From Candidatus Nitrosopumilus sp. (GTDB taxonomy: Archaea; Thermoproteota; Nitrososphaeria; Nitrososphaerales; Nitrosopumilaceae), in the NCBI GenBank assembly GCA_028351415.1, contig JAOMJV010000001.1, positions 1 to 40,897 on the forward strand: a stretch of DNA of 40,897 bases, read 5' to 3'. Below the pieces are notes generated by a model that did not search any database, was not told the DNA's origin, and saw only the letters and a list, made by a program, of their open reading frames with translations. Numbering within the stretch: position 1 is the first letter of the stretch; each line of letters starts with the position of its first letter. Both the position numbers and the translations under genes were made by a program. Shown piece by piece: positions 15,619-31,995 of this stretch.

Positions 15619-15897
15619 ATGGATAATATTTCGTCTAAAGTATTTTCAAGTTTAAAATATGTTTATTTAATTATTTTTTTTGTATTACTTTCTGGCTTCT
15701 TTCATCCATTAATCACAGGTCAAAGTTTTGATGTGGTAATTTTTGGAATTTTGATTTTATTTGTAGGTCTTGCTGGTTGTATTTTATTATATAAAAGTAG
15801 CATGTGTGAAAACAAAAAAGGAATATTTTTTGTATCTGGATTCAGTTTAATAATAATTTCACTTTATTTTATTTTTCAGATGACTGGAATAGTCTAG
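15619..15897 (+). CDS. Small integral membrane protein
   Basis: A 92-residue protein with three predicted transmembrane helices at about 13-33, 37-58 and 68-88, and a short loop MCENKKG between the last two. No recognisable domain. The stop codon overlaps the convergent glnA gene by 4 bp. The thermosome gene ends 47 bp upstream. Function unknown; a small hydrophobic gene with ordinary codon usage and no overlapping alternative, so probably real. Confidence 0.6.
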   Translation: MDNISSKVFSSLKYVYLIIFFVLLSGFFHPLITGQSFDVVIFGILILFVGLAGCILLYKSSMCENKKGIFFVSGFSLIIISLYFIFQMTGIV

Positions 15898-17369
15898 ACA
15901 TCAAAGTATAGATAAAATTCGTGTGGATGTGGTCTAATTGAAATTTCTCTTTGGTCTCTTCTTTCTAATTCAATAATTTTATCAATTACATCATTGGTAA
16001 AAATTGGATTTAAGAATTTTCTATCACTTTCTAATTCATCTAATGCTTCACCAAGACTTTTTGGTAAAACTCCAATTCCACGTTTAGCTCTATCTGATTT
16101 TGTCATTTTAAATATATCATCACGTACTTGGTCACCTGGATCCATTTTCTTTTTAATTCCGTCCATTCCAGCTGCTGTTACTGCTGCAAATACGAGATAT
16201 GGATTTGATGAAGGGTCTGGTGCTCTAAATTCTAATCTTTTTAATTTAGCATGTTGTTTTCCTTTCAAATGTTTAGGAACTCTTACAATAGCTGAACGAT
16301 TTCCTGCACTCCATGCAATATATGCTGGAGCCTCATAACCTGGAACCAATCTATGGTATGAATTGGTAGTAGGATTACAAATTGCAGATAATGCTTTTGC
16401 GTGATTAATAATTCCGCCACAAAAATATCTACCAACTTGACTTAATTCAATTTCATCATCAGGATCATAAAATGCATTTTCCTTTCCTTTCCATAAACTA
16501 ACATTAACATGCATTCCAGAACCTGCATCCATTGCAATTGGTTTTGGCATACATGTTGCAACTTTTCCATATTTTTGTGCAACATTTTTGATTACATATT
16601 TGTAAGACTGTGCAGCATCTGCAGCATTTGTCATATGATCATACATGATATCAATTTCACATTGTCCTGCAGTTGCAACTTCATGGTGATGATTATCACA
16701 TAAAATTCCAAAATTATTACTTAAAATATTTACACATTCATTTCTGTATGGTGTTAGAGTATCTGCAGGTGGTGAAGGGTAATATCCTTCTTGTAATCCC
16801 ATTGGATATCCATCTCCAGTTTGACTCCATGGTGCTTCTGCTGATTCAATTGAATATGATTGTCCTTTATATGGTGTTAAAACATCCCAATGAACTTTAT
16901 CAAAGACAAAAAATTCTACTTCTGGACCCCAGGTACTGAAATCAAATCCCTGAGTTTTAATATATTCCTCAGCTTTTTGAGAAATACCTCTAGGATCTCG
17001 AGATAATCTTCCTCTACCTTCGCCCCAATGTACATCACAAAGAAGTCTAGCAGTTTTATTTTCAGTCATCCAAGGAATAATTGCAAATGTATTTGGATCT
17101 GGTTTTAATAATAAATCTGAGTCTTCAATTGATGTAAAACCTATAATTGATGAACCATCCAATTTTGGTAATCCATCCTTCATTTGTTGAGGAGTAAAAG
17201 TACTTGCTGAAATTGTAGTATGATGGAAATGACCTGTAAGTCCTGTAAATTGTAAATCGATAAATTGAATACCTTCGTGTTGAATTCTTGAGAAAACTTC
17301 ATCAATTGAGTAGGTTGTTTGAACTGCTTTTCCGTGGCTAACTTTGTATGGCAATATTTTATACTTCAA
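15894..17369 (-). CDS. glnA: Glutamine synthetase 1 (type I, alpha-like)
   Basis: Makes glutamine from glutamate, ammonia and ATP; in an ammonia oxidiser it is a main assimilation route. It has 491 residues. Metal and substrate ligands are present: WGPEVEFF (E150, E152), HEVATAGQCE (E230, E238), GMHVN (H287), RLVPGYEAP (R340), GNRSAIVR (R358) and RLEFR (E380). HVN rather than HVH resembles the GSI-alpha class. The adenylylation-site tyrosine is replaced (DDIFKM, F420). The glutamate-loop Asn of bacterial GS is Ala (MDAGSGMH, A282). A TATA-like CCTTAAA is centred 26 nt upstream. A diverged paralogue lies at 30550-31995. Confidence 0.94.
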   Translation of the reverse strand: MKYKILPYKVSHGKAVQTTYSIDEVFSRIQHEGIQFIDLQFTGLTGHFHHTTISASTFTPQQMKDGLPKLDGSSIIGFTSIEDSDLLLKPDPNTFAIIPWMTENKTARLLCDVHWGEGRGRLSRDPRGISQKAEEYIKTQGFDFSTWGPEVEFFVFDKVHWDVLTPYKGQSYSIESAEAPWSQTGDGYPMGLQEGYYPSPPADTLTPYRNECVNILSNNFGILCDNHHHEVATAGQCEIDIMYDHMTNAADAAQSYKYVIKNVAQKYGKVATCMPKPIAMDAGSGMHVNVSLWKGKENAFYDPDDEIELSQVGRYFCGGIINHAKALSAICNPTTNSYHRLVPGYEAPAYIAWSAGNRSAIVRVPKHLKGKQHAKLKRLEFRAPDPSSNPYLVFAAVTAAGMDGIKKKMDPGDQVRDDIFKMTKSDRAKRGIGVLPKSLGEALDELESDRKFLNPIFTNDVIDKIIELERRDQREISIRPHPHEFYLYFDV

Positions 17370-27232: not shown

Positions 27233-28966
27233 CTATTCGTCGCCTTCTCCACGACCTATGTCGCCTAATCCATACTCGTCAATCACTTTATTTCTGGATT
27301 CATCTTTTTCATCAATTTCATTTTGCTCTTTCTTTTCATCTCCTTGGTATACAGTTCTAATTGGCCATGGAATTCTAATGTCATATTTTTTAAACTCTTC
27401 ATACATTATCATTCTTAGATCTGTTTTTGTCTTAAATTGTGCTCCATAATCTTTAACGTATAACCACATTGAGAAATCTAATGCAGAATCATTGAATTGA
27501 TTAAATCTTACAACTGGTTGTGTAATGTCTACATGTAGATCCTTGTCACATCCACAACTTGATTTATTTTCATCCAAATATGAACATCGATTTTGTCTAA
27601 TTAGGTGCCTTCCTTTACCGTCTTTAATTTCAATCATACCACGTTTTCCAATTTTTACTAAAATTGCTGCAACTTGTTTTGGATCATTAAGATATGAAAC
27701 TCCTACGGTAACTACTGCTGGAACAAGTCTATTTTCTTTTGTATAATTGATAATTTGTGCTGTTACTAATTGTCTTGTAGGAATTATTGCTACAGATTCA
27801 TGTAACCCATCTCTGACATAGGTAACTCTAGGTGTAATTTTATGAACATATCCGTTATATCCTGATTCTAATTGCACTCTTTCCCCTTCTTTGAAAATAT
27901 TGTCTTTTCTAATCATTAAATATGCAAAATAATTTTGCATTGTTTCTTGTAATGCTAAACCAATACCAATTGCAAGACCGCCTGTTGCAGTAGCTAACAC
28001 AAACAAATCTACTCCCCACCAAGATACTACTCCAAGAATTGTTGCAGCAAAAATTCCTACAGGTAAGATTTGCTTAAATGATTTAGGAATACCTTCTCTT
28101 TTTTTACGTGCATATCCTACTGGCCGAGAACTTGGAATTAATGGCTCAAAACCATTAATTCTTTTTTCTTCTCTCCAAATATCTATTGCAAATATTTCGT
28201 CTGGTTTTGCACCTGGTTTTAATTTTCTTCCTGATTGATTATTTCCAGTTACACAATTGTTAAAATATTTTAAATATTTTCCTCTTTCAGATTTTTTCCA
28301 TTTTTCAAAGGGACTAGTTACTAATTTTTCATAACTTCCAATAGGATTTCCTTTTGAAGTGCGGTATTGTTCTAATTGAATAATGCCTTCTTTTGTTTTA
28401 CAGAGATTCTTGAATTCTTCATCAGTAAAATCATCAGGTGTAATAGTTGGTGGAATCCATTTGTATAATTTGTGAAAAAGACCATCATCATCTGAAAAAC
28501 CTTGCATATCATACCAAACTTGAAAATCTTGTTTTTCAAGAATTGATTTATCACGTTTGGTAAGCATTATTGGAATTAAATGAGAAATTGTATAACCAAT
28601 AACTAGAATATTGAAAGTATTGAGAATCTTTGCAAAAGTTTTTTCAGGAGTTAATTCCGTTGTAGAGATACCTGAATCTTGTTCAAATAATTCTGAAGTT
28701 TGAATGTATGCATTAGTTGATGAAATTAGAGCAATTGCAAAAAATGGTAATACTGCATTTTGTACAAATCTTGACAAATGTGGTCTAGTGTAAAATATTT
28801 TTTTTGATTTTATCATTGATGAAAATGTTCTATATGCAGCAGCTATCATAACAATACCGACTATCATTATGACAAAAGCTAACTGAAGTGATTCTGATGA
28901 AGCCAATAACTGTGAAACTGTCTCAAATTCTCCAACTGAAATTTGTGAAATATCTCCTTCGCTCAT
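27233..28966 (-). CDS. MscS-family mechanosensitive channel
   Basis: A 577-residue membrane channel. Transmembrane helices are at about 28-50, 69-88 and 115-135, then a long cytoplasmic loop (140-290). The pore region is LATATGGLAIGIGLALQETM (Gly/Ala-rich TM3), followed by MIRKDNIFKEGERVQLESGY, the MscS beta-domain start. A C-terminal alpha/beta domain contains an unusual cysteine-rich insert (RCSYLDENKSSCGCDKD). MscS channels open on hypo-osmotic swelling and release small solutes. It is divergent from the KamA-like aminomutase (146-bp spacer), which may link it to an osmolyte. Confidence 0.92.
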   Translation of the reverse strand: MSEGDISQISVGEFETVSQLLASSESLQLAFVIMIVGIVMIAAAYRTFSSMIKSKKIFYTRPHLSRFVQNAVLPFFAIALISSTNAYIQTSELFEQDSGISTTELTPEKTFAKILNTFNILVIGYTISHLIPIMLTKRDKSILEKQDFQVWYDMQGFSDDDGLFHKLYKWIPPTITPDDFTDEEFKNLCKTKEGIIQLEQYRTSKGNPIGSYEKLVTSPFEKWKKSERGKYLKYFNNCVTGNNQSGRKLKPGAKPDEIFAIDIWREEKRINGFEPLIPSSRPVGYARKKREGIPKSFKQILPVGIFAATILGVVSWWGVDLFVLATATGGLAIGIGLALQETMQNYFAYLMIRKDNIFKEGERVQLESGYNGYVHKITPRVTYVRDGLHESVAIIPTRQLVTAQIINYTKENRLVPAVVTVGVSYLNDPKQVAAILVKIGKRGMIEIKDGKGRHLIRQNRCSYLDENKSSCGCDKDLHVDITQPVVRFNQFNDSALDFSMWLYVKDYGAQFKTKTDLRMIMYEEFKKYDIRIPWPIRTVYQGDEKKEQNEIDEKDESRNKVIDEYGLGDIGRGEGDE

Positions 28967-29112
28967 GATTTGTCTTCCTACTTCATTTTATTTTCTAGAA
29001 TAAAATGTTAAGCCATTTTGATTATTTTAAAAGAAAAAATTAGATAATTATTCATTATTTTATGCCTAGAATTGATGCAACATTTAACAAGGGTTGACAC
29101 ATTATCTACAAG
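28967..29112. promoter_or_regulatory. Divergent promoter region, MscS / KamA
   Basis: A 146-bp AT-rich spacer. TTTAACA (29083-29089) is centred 27 nt before the GTG start of the KamA gene, giving a likely leaderless transcript. On the other strand a possible TATA lies about 37 nt before the MscS ATG. Shared regulatory DNA would allow coordinated control. Confidence 0.45.
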
Positions 29113-30459
29113 GTGAGCTCTCAAGAATCAATTTGGAATGATGCTCCTAATATGAGATCATACACATTATCAAATTTTCGTAAACTTCCACAAATTCAAC
29201 AACTTTCTGAAGAAAAGCAATTTGAAATGGAAGTTGTAGGAAATGTTTTACCATTTAAAGCAAATAATTATGTCGTTGAACAATTAATTGATTGGAATAA
29301 TATTCCAAATGATCCAATTTTTGTTTTAACATTTCCTCAAAAAGGAATGTTGAAACCTGAACATTATGAAAAAATGGCTACTGCATTAAAAAATAATGCT
29401 GATAGAAAAGAAATAGCAGCAATTGCAAATGAAATTCGTTTACAATTAAATCCCCACCCTGCAGGTCAAATGGAACTTAATGTTCCAACATTAAAAGATG
29501 GGACTAAATTGTATGGAATGCAACACAAGTATAAAGAAACTTGTCTCTTCTTTCCTAGTCAAAGTCAAACCTGTCATGCATATTGTAGCTTCTGTTTTAG
29601 ATGGCCTCAATTTGTTGGTATGGACGAAATGAAATTTGCAATGCAAGAAGGTGAACAACTAGTTCAATATCTAAGAGAGCATCCTGAAATTACTGATGTA
29701 TTATTTACTGGTGGTGATCCGATGATAATGAAAGCAAAAATTTTCGCAAGATATGTGGATACTCTAATTGATGCAAATCTTCCAAATCTTAAAACTATTA
29801 GAATTGGAACAAAAGCACTTGCGTATTGGCCTTACAAATTTTTAACTGATGATGATTCTCAAGAAATGTTAGAAGTTTTTAAAAAAATTACTGATAGTGG
29901 TTTACATCTTGCATTTATGGCTCACTTTAATCATCTAAATGAATTATCAACAGATGCTGTAAAAGATGCGATTAGGGAAGTGAGAAAAACAGGCGCTCAA
30001 ATTAGGACTCAATCACCTCTCTTAACACATATCAATGACGATGCAGGAATGTGGGCTAAAATGTGGACTAAGCAGGTTGAATTGGGTTGTATCCCATACT
30101 ACATGTTTGTAGTTAGAGATACAGGAGCACAACATTATTTTGGAATTTCTTTAATTAAGGCACATGAAATTTTCAAAAAAGCATATTCTTCAGTTAGTGG
30201 ATTGGCTAGAACAGTTCGTGGACCAAGTATGTCCGCAACACCAGGTAAAGTCCATGTAATTGGAACTGCAAATTTTAAAGATGAAAAAGTAATTGTTTTA
30301 AGATTTTTGCAAGGTAGAAATCCTGATTGGGTAGAAATTCCATTTTTTGCAAAATACGATGAAAATGCAATTTGGTTAGATGATTTGAAACCCGCATTCA
30401 CTGACAAATTTTTCTTTCAAGATGAAATGGAAAAGATTAAACAAATTAATCCAATTTAA
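29113..30459 (+). CDS. KamA-family radical SAM aminomutase; acidic substrate suspected
   Basis: A 448-residue radical SAM/PLP protein of the lysine 2,3-aminomutase family, starting at GTG. The cluster motif is CHAYCSFC (C154, C158, C161) with R163 after it; TGGDPM and AHFNHLNE (270-277) match KamA. From PYY (328-330) to SG (362-363) it aligns with clostridial lysine aminomutase (recalled) without gaps. There, the lysine-binding Asp293 becomes R335 and Asp330 becomes S372, while the PLP lysine is kept (K379). A positively charged pocket fits an acidic amino acid, as in glutamate 2,3-aminomutase. The C-terminal zinc tail of clostridial enzymes is absent. Upstream of glnA2, divergent from MscS. 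Confidence 0.85.
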   Translation: MSSQESIWNDAPNMRSYTLSNFRKLPQIQQLSEEKQFEMEVVGNVLPFKANNYVVEQLIDWNNIPNDPIFVLTFPQKGMLKPEHYEKMATALKNNADRKEIAAIANEIRLQLNPHPAGQMELNVPTLKDGTKLYGMQHKYKETCLFFPSQSQTCHAYCSFCFRWPQFVGMDEMKFAMQEGEQLVQYLREHPEITDVLFTGGDPMIMKAKIFARYVDTLIDANLPNLKTIRIGTKALAYWPYKFLTDDDSQEMLEVFKKITDSGLHLAFMAHFNHLNELSTDAVKDAIREVRKTGAQIRTQSPLLTHINDDAGMWAKMWTKQVELGCIPYYMFVVRDTGAQHYFGISLIKAHEIFKKAYSSVSGLARTVRGPSMSATPGKVHVIGTANFKDEKVIVLRFLQGRNPDWVEIPFFAKYDENAIWLDDLKPAFTDKFFFQDEMEKIKQINPI

Positions 30460-30549
30460 GATCATTCTGAATCATAAGCTTTACCTGACTTTATTGACAA
30501 TTCTATCTCACTAAACTAGATTAGTAAAGTCATTTCTTATGACTAGTAA

Positions 30550-31995
30550 TTGGATTATAAACAAGTTTTACAGATTGTTAACGATGAAAGTATTTCTTTC
30601 ATTGACTTTTGGTTTGTAGATATTTTTGGTGAACTTCATAATGTTGGAATGCCAAGCTATGCAATTGATGAAAATAGTTTTGTAAATGGTCTTGAAAAAT
30701 TAGATGCAAGTTCAATCACTGGATTCAAATCTGTAAATAATTCTGATATGATTTTAATGCCTGATCCAAATTCATTCAAAATTTTACCTAATGATTATGA
30801 TCCTGGACACAGAAAAAATGCACGTATATTTTGTGATCTATATGATGGTAGTACAAGAAAGGAATCACGCTATACTAGAGATTCTAGAGGAATTGCGCAC
30901 AAAGCAGCTGACAAACTTGGTGAATTTGGATTTACTCATACTAATTGGGGACCTGAAATAGAATTTTTTGTCTTTGATTCAATCAATGTTTATCCGTCCC
31001 CTTATGCTGCAACTCATTCTGGTGGAGGTTCTGGCTATTCCATTGACTCTAAAGAATCACCATGGTCTAAAGGAAATGTTAGTACGGCAATAAATTTCAA
31101 AGAGGGATACTACCCATCACAACCAAAAGATACACTTGCAGGGTTTAGAAAAGATGTGTGTGAAGATTTGTATAATTATTTTGGAATAAAAATTGAAGCT
31201 GAACATCATGAAGTAGCAACTTCTGGTCAATGTGAAATTAATCTAGTTTATGATGAGATGATTACTATGGCAGATAATGTCATTGCAGTTAAAAATTTAG
31301 TTAAAGTTAAAGCTAAAAGAAAAAATAAAGTAGCAACTTTTATGCCAAAACCAATTTTTGGTGATAATGCATCAGCTATGCATACACATCAGAGTTTATG
31401 GAATGGAAATTCTAATGTAATGTATGATGCAGATGATGAAGTTGCACAGTTAAGTCAAATTGGTAGGTATTATGTTGGAGGAATTTTAAATCATGCATCA
31501 GCGTTATGTGCAATTTCAAATCCCACCACTAATTCTTACAAACGTCTTGTTCCAGGATTTGAAGCACCAGTCAATGTTTGTTGGGGATTAGGAAATCGTT
31601 CTACTGCAGTTAGAATTCCAATGTATAATAGAAATCAAGAAAAAAGTAAAAGAATGGAATATCGTGTGCCTGATCCTACTGCAAATATCTATCTTTTAGA
31701 AGCTGCATTATTGTTAGCAGGACTGGATGGAATTAAAAAGAAAATGGATCCTGGTGATCCTATTAAAGAAAATGTTTACAAACTTTCTGCAGAAAAGAAA
31801 AAAGAATACAATATTGGTTCTCTACCTGTTTCATTAAAGGGATCACTGGATTCTCTTGGTAGTGATTCTGAATTTTTAGAAGAAGTTTTTTCATCTGATT
31901 TTCTTGAGGCGTATTCTGAATTAAAATATAAAGAATACACTGCATTTGCACAAACCCCAACTGCTTGGGAAGTTTCAATGTATGCAGATGCATAA
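30550..31995 (+). CDS. Glutamine synthetase 2 (diverged GSI paralogue)
   Basis: A 481-residue type I glutamine synthetase with a TTG start; the nearby ATG at 30539 is out of frame. Metal ligands are intact: E136, E138 (GPEIEFF), E221, E229, H278 and E370. R332 and R350 are present. Differences from GS1: the glutamate-binding loop is DNASAMHTH (NGSG changed to NASA), DGSS is DASS (52-55), HTH replaces HVN, and Y410 (ENVYKL) sits where bacterial GSI-beta is adenylylated. It follows the KamA gene by 90 bp on the same strand. Ordinary glutamine synthesis is possible; a beta-glutamate substrate is a hypothesis from context. Confidence 0.9.
   Translation: MDYKQVLQIVNDESISFIDFWFVDIFGELHNVGMPSYAIDENSFVNGLEKLDASSITGFKSVNNSDMILMPDPNSFKILPNDYDPGHRKNARIFCDLYDGSTRKESRYTRDSRGIAHKAADKLGEFGFTHTNWGPEIEFFVFDSINVYPSPYAATHSGGGSGYSIDSKESPWSKGNVSTAINFKEGYYPSQPKDTLAGFRKDVCEDLYNYFGIKIEAEHHEVATSGQCEINLVYDEMITMADNVIAVKNLVKVKAKRKNKVATFMPKPIFGDNASAMHTHQSLWNGNSNVMYDADDEVAQLSQIGRYYVGGILNHASALCAISNPTTNSYKRLVPGFEAPVNVCWGLGNRSTAVRIPMYNRNQEKSKRMEYRVPDPTANIYLLEAALLLAGLDGIKKKMDPGDPIKENVYKLSAEKKKEYNIGSLPVSLKGSLDSLGSDSEFLEEVFSSDFLEAYSELKYKEYTAFAQTPTAWEVSMYADA

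Follow-up and report, generated by a model that had tools for sequence, protein, structure and literature searches.

The window analysed here is a stretch of 40,897 nucleotides from a Candidatus Nitrosopumilus sp. (contig JAOMJV010000001.1), in which a mechanosensitive channel gene, a gene for a KamA-like protein and a second glutamine synthetase gene lie side by side. The MscS-type channel, of 577 aa, is encoded on the reverse strand (27,233-28,966) and is separated by a 146 bp intergenic region (28,967-29,112) from the divergent gene of a KamA-like radical-SAM/PLP protein of 448 aa (29,113-30,459, forward strand, GTG start), which is proposed to be a glutamate 2,3-aminomutase. The latter is followed on the forward strand by GlnA2, a second type I glutamine synthetase of 481 aa (30,550-31,995, TTG start); GlnA1, the genome's other glutamine synthetase (15,894-17,369, reverse strand), is located approximately 13 kb away and served as comparison sequence. 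The open reading frames, their strands and their Pfam and NCBIfam matches bear out the gene trio as described in the initial annotation.

Matches to the KamA-like protein with at least 66% identity were found in 52 of 398 genomes of the phylum, all of them in a single family (52 of its 63 sampled genomes), and matches outside this family showed at most 33% identity, except for one 70-residue piece at 38%. Among 137 Nitrosopumilaceae genomes, 104 encode KamA; GlnA2 is present in 78 of these 104 versus two of the 33 genomes lacking KamA, and MscS in 90 of 104 versus two of 33, this co-occurrence having been evaluated by Fisher tests that make no correction for phylogeny. The same coupling of GlnA2 to KamA is visible within genera (6/6 KamA-positive versus 0/6 KamA-negative genomes in g4, 7/7 versus 0/12 in g8, and 4/6 versus 0/6 in g2), but is not seen in the window's own genus, g1 (45/56 versus 2/3). 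The linkage is thus conserved beyond the source strain, within one family: of 76 named contigs, 74 have MscS next to KamA in divergent orientation, and GlnA2 often, though not always, adjoins KamA (in 52 of 74 named contigs, and in nine of 20 more distant loci, or ten with L164). The long MscS does not neighbour KamA in nine of 19 distant loci. The three genes are contiguous in genome G102, which we take to be N. maritimus SCM1.

Could this be no more than the conserved gene order of the Nitrosopumilaceae, with GlnA2 simply making alpha-glutamine as a second synthetase and the MscS channel unrelated to either gene? Genes for RNaseZ, a methyltransferase and PRPP synthase are likewise kept beside the locus in most genomes; at L110 and L170, Cenarchaeum loci that probably represent the same record, MscS has kept PRPP synthase and not KamA as its neighbour. 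The retention of GlnA2 in two of three KamA-negative genomes of g1 points the same way. Against this, KamA and GlnA2 remain adjacent at five g8 loci where RNaseZ and PRPP synthase were not found alongside, and GlnA2 is missing from every KamA-negative genome of g2, g4 and g8, while it persists at other sites in some KamA-positive genomes (e.g. G096, G156 and G307). Moreover, at five g2 loci the neighbour of KamA is a small MscS of another kind; one of these loci, L155, has the order KamA-DUF432-small MscS-AsnC-GlnA2, and the four others carry a similar DUF432/MscS pair. The linkage therefore exceeds general synteny and has been re-formed with a different MscS, and we consider mere gene order an unlikely explanation. 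At a further locus, L162, a Na+/H+ antiporter is divergent from KamA.

GlnA2 scores 511.3 bits with the type I glutamine synthetase model TIGR00653 (cut-off 429), and the catalytic residues D50, E129, E131, E212, E220, H269, R321, E327, R339, R344, E357 and R359 (E. coli numbering) are kept in 63/63 orthologues. All 63 also carry two clade-specific pocket substitutions in the substrate loop, G265A and G267A (same numbering), which, together with the co-occurrence with KamA, suggest that GlnA2 may amidate beta-glutamate. GlnA2 is dispensable, since it is absent from 26 of the 104 KamA-positive genomes. The channel protein exceeds the cut-offs of both MscS domain models (MS_channel_2nd, the beta domain, 31.0 bits against 20.2; MS_channel_3rd, the C-terminal domain, 27.7 against 21) and has four invariant cysteines (C238, C461, C471 and C473); its linkage to KamA is what suggests a role in solute release.

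The best NCBIfam matches of the KamA-like protein are KamA/AblA models, with strong E-values, yet all six KamA-family models remain below their curated cut-offs: 133.1 bits for the KamA subfamily (TIGR00238, cut-off 199.2), 113.9 for lysine 2,3-aminomutase (LAM; TIGR03820, 525.4), 105 for EpmB (TIGR03821, 369.3), 97.6 for arginine 2,3-aminomutase (TIGR04468, 600) and 91.2 for glutamate 2,3-aminomutase (EAM; TIGR04368, 650). The features that broadly define a KamA-type enzyme, namely the CxxxCxxC motif, the PLP lysine and the carboxylate arginine, are nevertheless present in 109/109 aligned family rows. These rows comprise 30 loci from the genome search (the window's own copy included) and 79 of 80 named contigs, so that some genomes are represented twice; L084 was left out because of undetermined residues. 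The radical-SAM cluster motif C154-x3-C158-x2-C161 and R163 (29,572-29,601, forward strand) are invariant in all rows and in 8/8 bacterial homologues, R163 presumably being the equivalent of Arg134, the carboxylate-binding arginine of LAM. K379 (30,247-30,249, forward strand), which matches LAM's PLP lysine in the alignment, is likewise invariant in the 109 rows.

The side-chain end of the active site is different. From an ungapped comparison, the initial annotation had placed R335 and S372 at the positions of LAM Asp293 and Asp330, which we take to be the residues gripping the lysine side chain, and K379 at that of the PLP lysine; the multiple alignment upholds all three assignments. The charge inversion at R335 (30,115-30,117, forward strand) is found in 109/109 rows, in 8/8 bacterial homologues and in 20/20 more distant rows. 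S372 closes the segment R366-TVR369-GPS372 (30,208-30,228, forward strand), of which R366 is conserved in 109/109 and R369 in 106/109 rows; L154, missed by the motif filter of the distant rows, has R335, R366, R369 and K379, with Ile at 372. The tested cationic-substrate enzymes (AblA, EpmB and BlsG) have Asp where the KamA-like protein has R335; this Asp is present in E. coli EpmB, an AblA-AblB fusion, one AblA_like_2 protein, two proteins above the arginine-aminomutase cut-off and 15/15 archaeal LAM-side rows. Although these 15 rows match the EAM model, they were rejected as EAMs and used as Asp controls, because the lysine model (cut-off 525.4) is the top-scoring one for each of the three that were scanned, with 755 bits for L123, 491 for L133 and 451 for L136, and because L123 gives a good alignment to the LAM structure 2A5H. 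From the alignment, R335 with the nearby R366 and R369 is predicted to form an acid-binding pocket.

Structure prediction gave an AlphaFold model (pLDDT 72.7, pTM 0.72) with a predicted lysine 2,3-aminomutase fold, the top match being 2A5H (Z 23.6 over 310 residues, 23% identity; next entry, Z 11.0). Confidence is low in active-site loops (pLDDT <50 for residues 142-154, 164-170 and 334-342), and T143 presumably occupies the site of LAM R116, a contact of the PLP phosphate.

EAM, reportedly the subject of work by Ruzicka and Frey in 2007, would have Lys and Asn where the KamA-like protein has Arg and Ser; a basic residue at the first of these side-chain positions would then be common to both, as would the reaction proposed here. 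The two differ in the score against TIGR04368 and in the hosts, which are aerobic archaea for the KamA-like protein. No sequence above the TIGR04368 cut-off was found in 24 archaeal genomes, 14 controls and four plasmid proteins (two of the latter exceeding the arginine-aminomutase cut-off), and of the records matched by a lysine-type query, none of the best 60 of 137 from plasmids or the best 20 of 21 from phages carries a glutamate 2,3-aminomutase annotation. In a tree built without EAM, the KamA-like protein falls in a joint clade with proteins on bacterial plasmids; the inner branches are very long (8.3 and 4.0 changes per column) and give no firm deep order, and therefore this joint archaeal-bacterial clade alone is used.

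The expectation that such cells contain beta-glutamate agrees with the published metabolome of N. maritimus SCM1, where beta-glutamic acid is given as the most abundant identified metabolite, at 730 mM (PMC8269262); beta-glutamine is absent from the passages on N. maritimus. A word search of open-licence literature brought up, in the text it covered, no gene assigned to beta-glutamate in these archaea. The compound can be made by another route, since early NMR work in methanogens ruled out a glutamate aminomutase as its source (PMC1224877). The KamA-like protein might use a different amino acid, acidic or neutral (aspartate, 2-aminoadipate or glutamine), with beta-glutamate arising elsewhere in the cell: R335, R366 and R369 point to no more than a probably anionic side chain, Arg would suit aspartate and 2-aminoadipate too, and the bacterial homologues (46-53% identity) are found in diverse gene contexts, which include natural-product clusters. 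This possibility is made improbable by beta-glutamate being the dominant identified metabolite, by the coupling of KamA to a glutamine synthetase, by the finding that the genome of the window has no further KamA match above noise, and by the absence of the methanogen-type 2-hydroxyglutaryl-CoA dehydratase (PF06050) from 17/17 genomes, the control M. jannaschii being positive. A diverged lysine 2,3-aminomutase producing beta-lysine or N-acetyl-beta-lysine as osmolyte, which would fit the best model matches and the 'lysine 2,3-aminomutase' annotation of several bacterial homologues in PLSDB records, is very improbable and was rejected, given the low TIGR03820 score, the replacement of both gripping Asp residues by Arg and Ser, and the absence of AblB from 17/17 genomes (control M. 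acetivorans positive).

We thus regard the KamA-like protein as probably a glutamate 2,3-aminomutase supplying beta-glutamate as an osmolyte, with putative amidation by GlnA2 and venting through MscS. SAM would be cleaved at the 4Fe-4S cluster to give a 5'-deoxyadenosyl radical, while L-glutamate would form an aldimine with PLP (K379); R163 would bind the alpha-carboxylate of the substrate, and R335, together with R366 and R369, the carboxylate of the side chain. The amino group would then move from C2 to C3, and the resulting beta-glutamate would be stored; GlnA2 most likely amidates part of this pool to neutral beta-glutamine, and the divergent channel may vent both solutes on hypo-osmotic shock. 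Of the osmolyte module as first suggested, the synthesis step has good support, on the strength of the charge-inverted site, the PLP and radical-SAM residues, the conserved linkage and the 730 mM beta-glutamate, from which we infer substrate, product and direction; amidation and release remain inferences.

The proposed module resembles the methanogen AblA-AblB pathway to N-epsilon-acetyl-beta-lysine (PMC1224877) in combining a radical-SAM aminomutase with a second enzyme to yield a neutral beta-amino-acid osmolyte, but would use an acidic substrate and has a glutamine synthetase in place of the acetyltransferase. Methanogens accumulate the same beta-glutamate and beta-glutamine, and in Methanohalophilus beta-glutamate is amidated by a glutamine synthetase; their proposed route, in contrast, runs via 2-hydroxyglutaryl-CoA with no aminomutase (PMC1224877). 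By description, bacterial eam genes associated with Na+ riboswitches (PMC9337991) also tie radical-SAM glutamate aminomutases to osmotic stress, and IdnL4 of incednine biosynthesis (PMC11284099) ties one to beta-glutamate; unlike the present genes, both are bacterial.

More tentatively, the trio may be a dedicated beta-glutamate/beta-glutamine module. Its aminomutase, which shares a clade with bacterial plasmid proteins, would have arisen apart from clostridial EAM and would function in ammonia oxidisers that live aerobically; its partners would be a glutamine synthetase specific for beta-glutamate and a cysteine-bearing MscS valve. The module could then be a main source of the ocean beta-glutamate that increases with depth. 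The module spans ammonia-oxidising archaea, marine and other. If it makes beta-glutamate, one marker gene would tell the producers among them, an ocean nitrogen compound would be linked to its source, and an oxygen-sensitive enzyme type in aerobes would become directly testable.

At gathering thresholds, Rfam yielded nothing but one tRNA in the whole window. The intergenic region contains a conserved element of inverted-repeat character, AACATTTAACAAGGGT (29,079-29,094, forward strand), 34 nt upstream of the KamA start. The pattern AACNTTTAACAAKRG has one match in each of four of 12 genomes, every time just upstream of KamA, and its reversed control has one match in each of two of the 12, so that no regulon is shown. 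Since the window holds one match versus 1.47 expected at up to three mismatches, it is conservation at a fixed distance, not rarity, that gives the element its weight as a putative core promoter or operator.

The genes for a 577-aa MscS channel (27233-28966, reverse strand), a divergent 448-aa KamA-like radical-SAM/PLP protein (KamA; 29113-30459, forward strand) and a second type I glutamine synthetase (GlnA2; 30550-31995, forward strand) were found at the positions named in the initial annotation, whose observation is correct. The genome assembly, comprised of 50 contigs and 1.07 Mb with a completeness of 78%, carries a single KamA-like gene, the second match (17.5 bits) being noise-level, and at that completeness two glutamine synthetases, both within the window. 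Among the matches listed, the nearest relative of KamA belongs to an uncultured Nitrosopumilus (L035, 97% identity).

In a multiple alignment of 109 family rows, the cluster cysteines C154, C158 and C161, R163 and the PLP lysine K379 were invariant; R163 corresponds to the arginine of lysine 2,3-aminomutase (LAM, PDB 2A5H) that grips the alpha-carboxylate. The proposed replacement of LAM Asp293 and Asp330 by R335 and S372, with K379 and the cluster cysteines kept, was borne out in 109/109 rows, R366 was invariant as well, and R369 was Arg in 106. The charge of the KamA pocket is therefore inverted, which would suit an acidic side chain; such an inversion alone would not tell glutamate from other acids. 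The same residues occur in 20 more distant family rows (R369 being Lys once) and, save for Ile at 372, at locus L154, while eight bacterial homologues possess R335, R366 and R369 with Val (five) or Ser (three) at position 372. On the cationic-substrate side, Asp occupies position 335 in 15/15 archaeal rows (L123-L137; for the three that were scanned the lysine model was best, its cut-off being passed by one), and also in E. coli EpmB, an AblA-AblB fusion, one AblA_like_2 protein and two proteins above the arginine-aminomutase cut-off. A separate archaeal KamA-like group outside the family (L138-L142, L147-L152) carries Arg where LAM has Asp293 in 11/11 rows, and may also act on an acidic substrate.

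Compared with the NCBIfam models, KamA was placed in the KamA group yet under every curated cut-off: 133 bits for TIGR00238 (cut-off 199), 113.9 for lysine 2,3-aminomutase (525), 105 for EpmB (369), 97.6 for arginine aminomutase (600), 97.2 for AblA_like_2 (396) and 91 for glutamate aminomutase (650). An AlphaFold model, whose input alignment of 35 rows comprised the window's protein and 34 orthologues from the 80 named contigs (mean pLDDT 72.7, pTM 0.72), predicts a LAM fold, with 2A5H as top match in both Foldseek (E 7e-14) and VIA-align (Z 23.6, rmsd 4.0, 310 residues; runner-up Z 11.0). Because the poorly modelled regions include loops of the active site, residue roles were based on the sequence alignment.

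The likeliest function of KamA is that of a glutamate 2,3-aminomutase, with the osmolyte beta-glutamate as its product. A section of PMC8269262 reports beta-glutamic acid as the top identified metabolite of N. maritimus SCM1, at an intracellular 730 mM; the compound was absent from the phytoplankton cultures, and its abundance was higher at depth. A passage of PMC8281238 cites this finding; its own exometabolome study did not detect the compound, with an extraction said to miss polar molecules of this type. In genome G102, GlnA2 (1617866-1619299), KamA (1619411-1620742) and MscS (1620873-1622603) are contiguous. For methanogens, part of PMC1224877 describes glutamate aminomutase as ruled out by NMR, proposes a route via 2-hydroxyglutaryl-CoA, and states that in Methanohalophilus beta-glutamine is made by a glutamine synthetase, a conversion that the initial annotation had also mentioned. 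Neither the dehydratase family PF06050 nor AblB was found in 17 Nitrosopumilaceae genomes, the window's own incomplete genome included (0/17 each; the respective controls M. jannaschii and M. acetivorans were positive). Bacterial eam genes are linked to Na+ riboswitches, according to an extract of PMC9337991, and IdnL4 is described in a portion of PMC11284099 as a likely glutamate aminomutase whose in vitro activity was not seen. Word searches of the open-licence literature listed no paper that attributes the beta-glutamate of ammonia-oxidising archaea to an aminomutase.

The other steps of the osmolyte module initially proposed, amidation by GlnA2 and venting by MscS, would be plausible additions to the KamA mechanism. 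All 63 GlnA2 orthologues retain those residues of E. coli GlnA for catalysis and glutamate binding that were checked, and carry G265A and G267A in the substrate-side loop (NASAMH vs NGSGMH), changes that would fit an altered substrate. The window's other glutamine synthetase (15894-17369, reverse strand) retains both loop glycines and has its own changes, N264A and H271N. MscS cysteines 238, 461, 471 and 473 are invariant in 83/83 aligned orthologues, three of them forming a C-x9-C-x-C segment, and could possibly give this mechanosensitive channel a site for metal binding or redox chemistry.

Co-occurrence was scored in 137 Nitrosopumilaceae genomes (completeness at least 90%, plus the window's own), in which KamA was found in 104 (E up to 1e-100), GlnA2 in 80 (matches of at least 54% identity) and MscS in 92 (E up to 1e-120). 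GlnA2 was present in 78/104 genomes with KamA versus 2/33 without it (Fisher 7e-13, kinship ignored), and MscS in 90/104 versus 2/33 (1e-17, kinship likewise ignored). The exceptions all come from three genomes: in G435 and G404 the contig ends inside MscS or 232 bases beyond, and in G444 GlnA2 lies on an 11.9-kb contig without KamA. No KamA was found in the 1.5 kb upstream of the separate GlnA2 of G435; a similar locus, L101, has a 1.4-kb gap at that place. Within genera, GlnA2 accompanied KamA in 6/6 genomes of g4 versus 0/6 without KamA (one-sided p 0.001), in 7/7 versus 0/12 of g8 (2e-5) and in 4/6 versus 0/6 of g2 (0.03). In the window's own genus, GlnA2 occurs in 45/56 genomes with KamA and 2/3 without, so no coupling is seen there. 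Six genomes (G096, G132, G156, G307, G346 and G061) retain GlnA2 though it lies more than 300 kb from KamA or on another contig. GlnA2 appears broken or split at L016, L054 and G068:C1:17603-18541 (best tblastn match 174 residues; in-frame TGA in G068), and looks as if undergoing loss while KamA remains.

The linkage of the three genes extends beyond this strain, MscS being divergent from KamA at a distance of at most 700 nt in 74/76 named contigs and GlnA2 following within 600 nt in 52/74; among 20 loci of more distant genera, MscS adjoins KamA in 10/19 and GlnA2 follows in 9/20. Linkage alone is weak, since the surroundings, among them RNaseZ and PRPP synthase, are in large part conserved too. 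Stronger evidence than such plain conservation comes from five g8 loci where KamA and GlnA2 are adjacent and neither RNaseZ nor PRPP synthase was found within about 5 kb (the L164 GlnA2, at 52% identity, was missed by the 55% filter of the adjacency count); two of the five also retain a diverged MscS. The long MscS was not found in six g2 loci examined. At one of these, L155 (6689-10004), the genes after KamA encode, in order, a DUF432 protein, a different kind of MscS (279 aa), an AsnC-type regulator and GlnA2; L156-L159 have a like DUF432/MscS pair, judged by N-terminal sequence and length rather than Pfam, and within L155-L159 an AsnC-like regulator and GlnA2 occur in three loci each. DUF432 may be part of the channel or of the osmolyte system. 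The pair was not found beside KamA at L154, nor were the pair or a Na+/H+ exchanger at L161 and L164; at L162 such an exchanger is divergent from KamA. Genes of osmotic or ionic function are thus found next to KamA repeatedly, though not always the same ones.

A conserved element with inverted-repeat character, AACMTTTAACAAGGGT (29079-29094, forward strand), lies 34 nt upstream of the KamA start. With at most three mismatches it occurs 31-46 nt before KamA in 72/80 named contigs (at 34 nt in 62); in the stretch from -130 to -60 the best match has at least five mismatches in 80/80. Exact copies of the pattern were found in 4/12 genomes, one apiece and each time upstream of KamA. The element may serve as an operator, or else as the core promoter if the message is leaderless.

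In a phylum survey of 398 genomes, matches of at least 66% identity occurred in 52, all among the 63 Nitrosopumilaceae sampled; other matches were at most 33% identical, except for one 70-residue piece at 38%. A plasmid collection, the sole bacterial set searched, contained homologues at 46-53% identity filed under Nonomuraea, Mycetohabitans, Burkholderia, Nocardia, Amycolatopsis, Rhodococcus and Streptomyces. In a 43-row tree, which included no glutamate 2,3-aminomutase or BlsG row, the eight bacterial homologues retrieved group with the archaeal KamA family on a very long branch (support 100/100), and neither the LAM rows nor EpmB nor the second archaeal group with Arg fall within this clade. 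Annotation was present for six of the eight and absent for two; three of the six adjoin NRPS or AMP-binding/carrier-protein genes, the other three not clearly so. Those adjoining such natural-product genes are L119, L120 and L122, and the one from Rhodococcus among them neighbours a SidA-type monooxygenase, a class I tRNA-ligase-family protein and a cupin.
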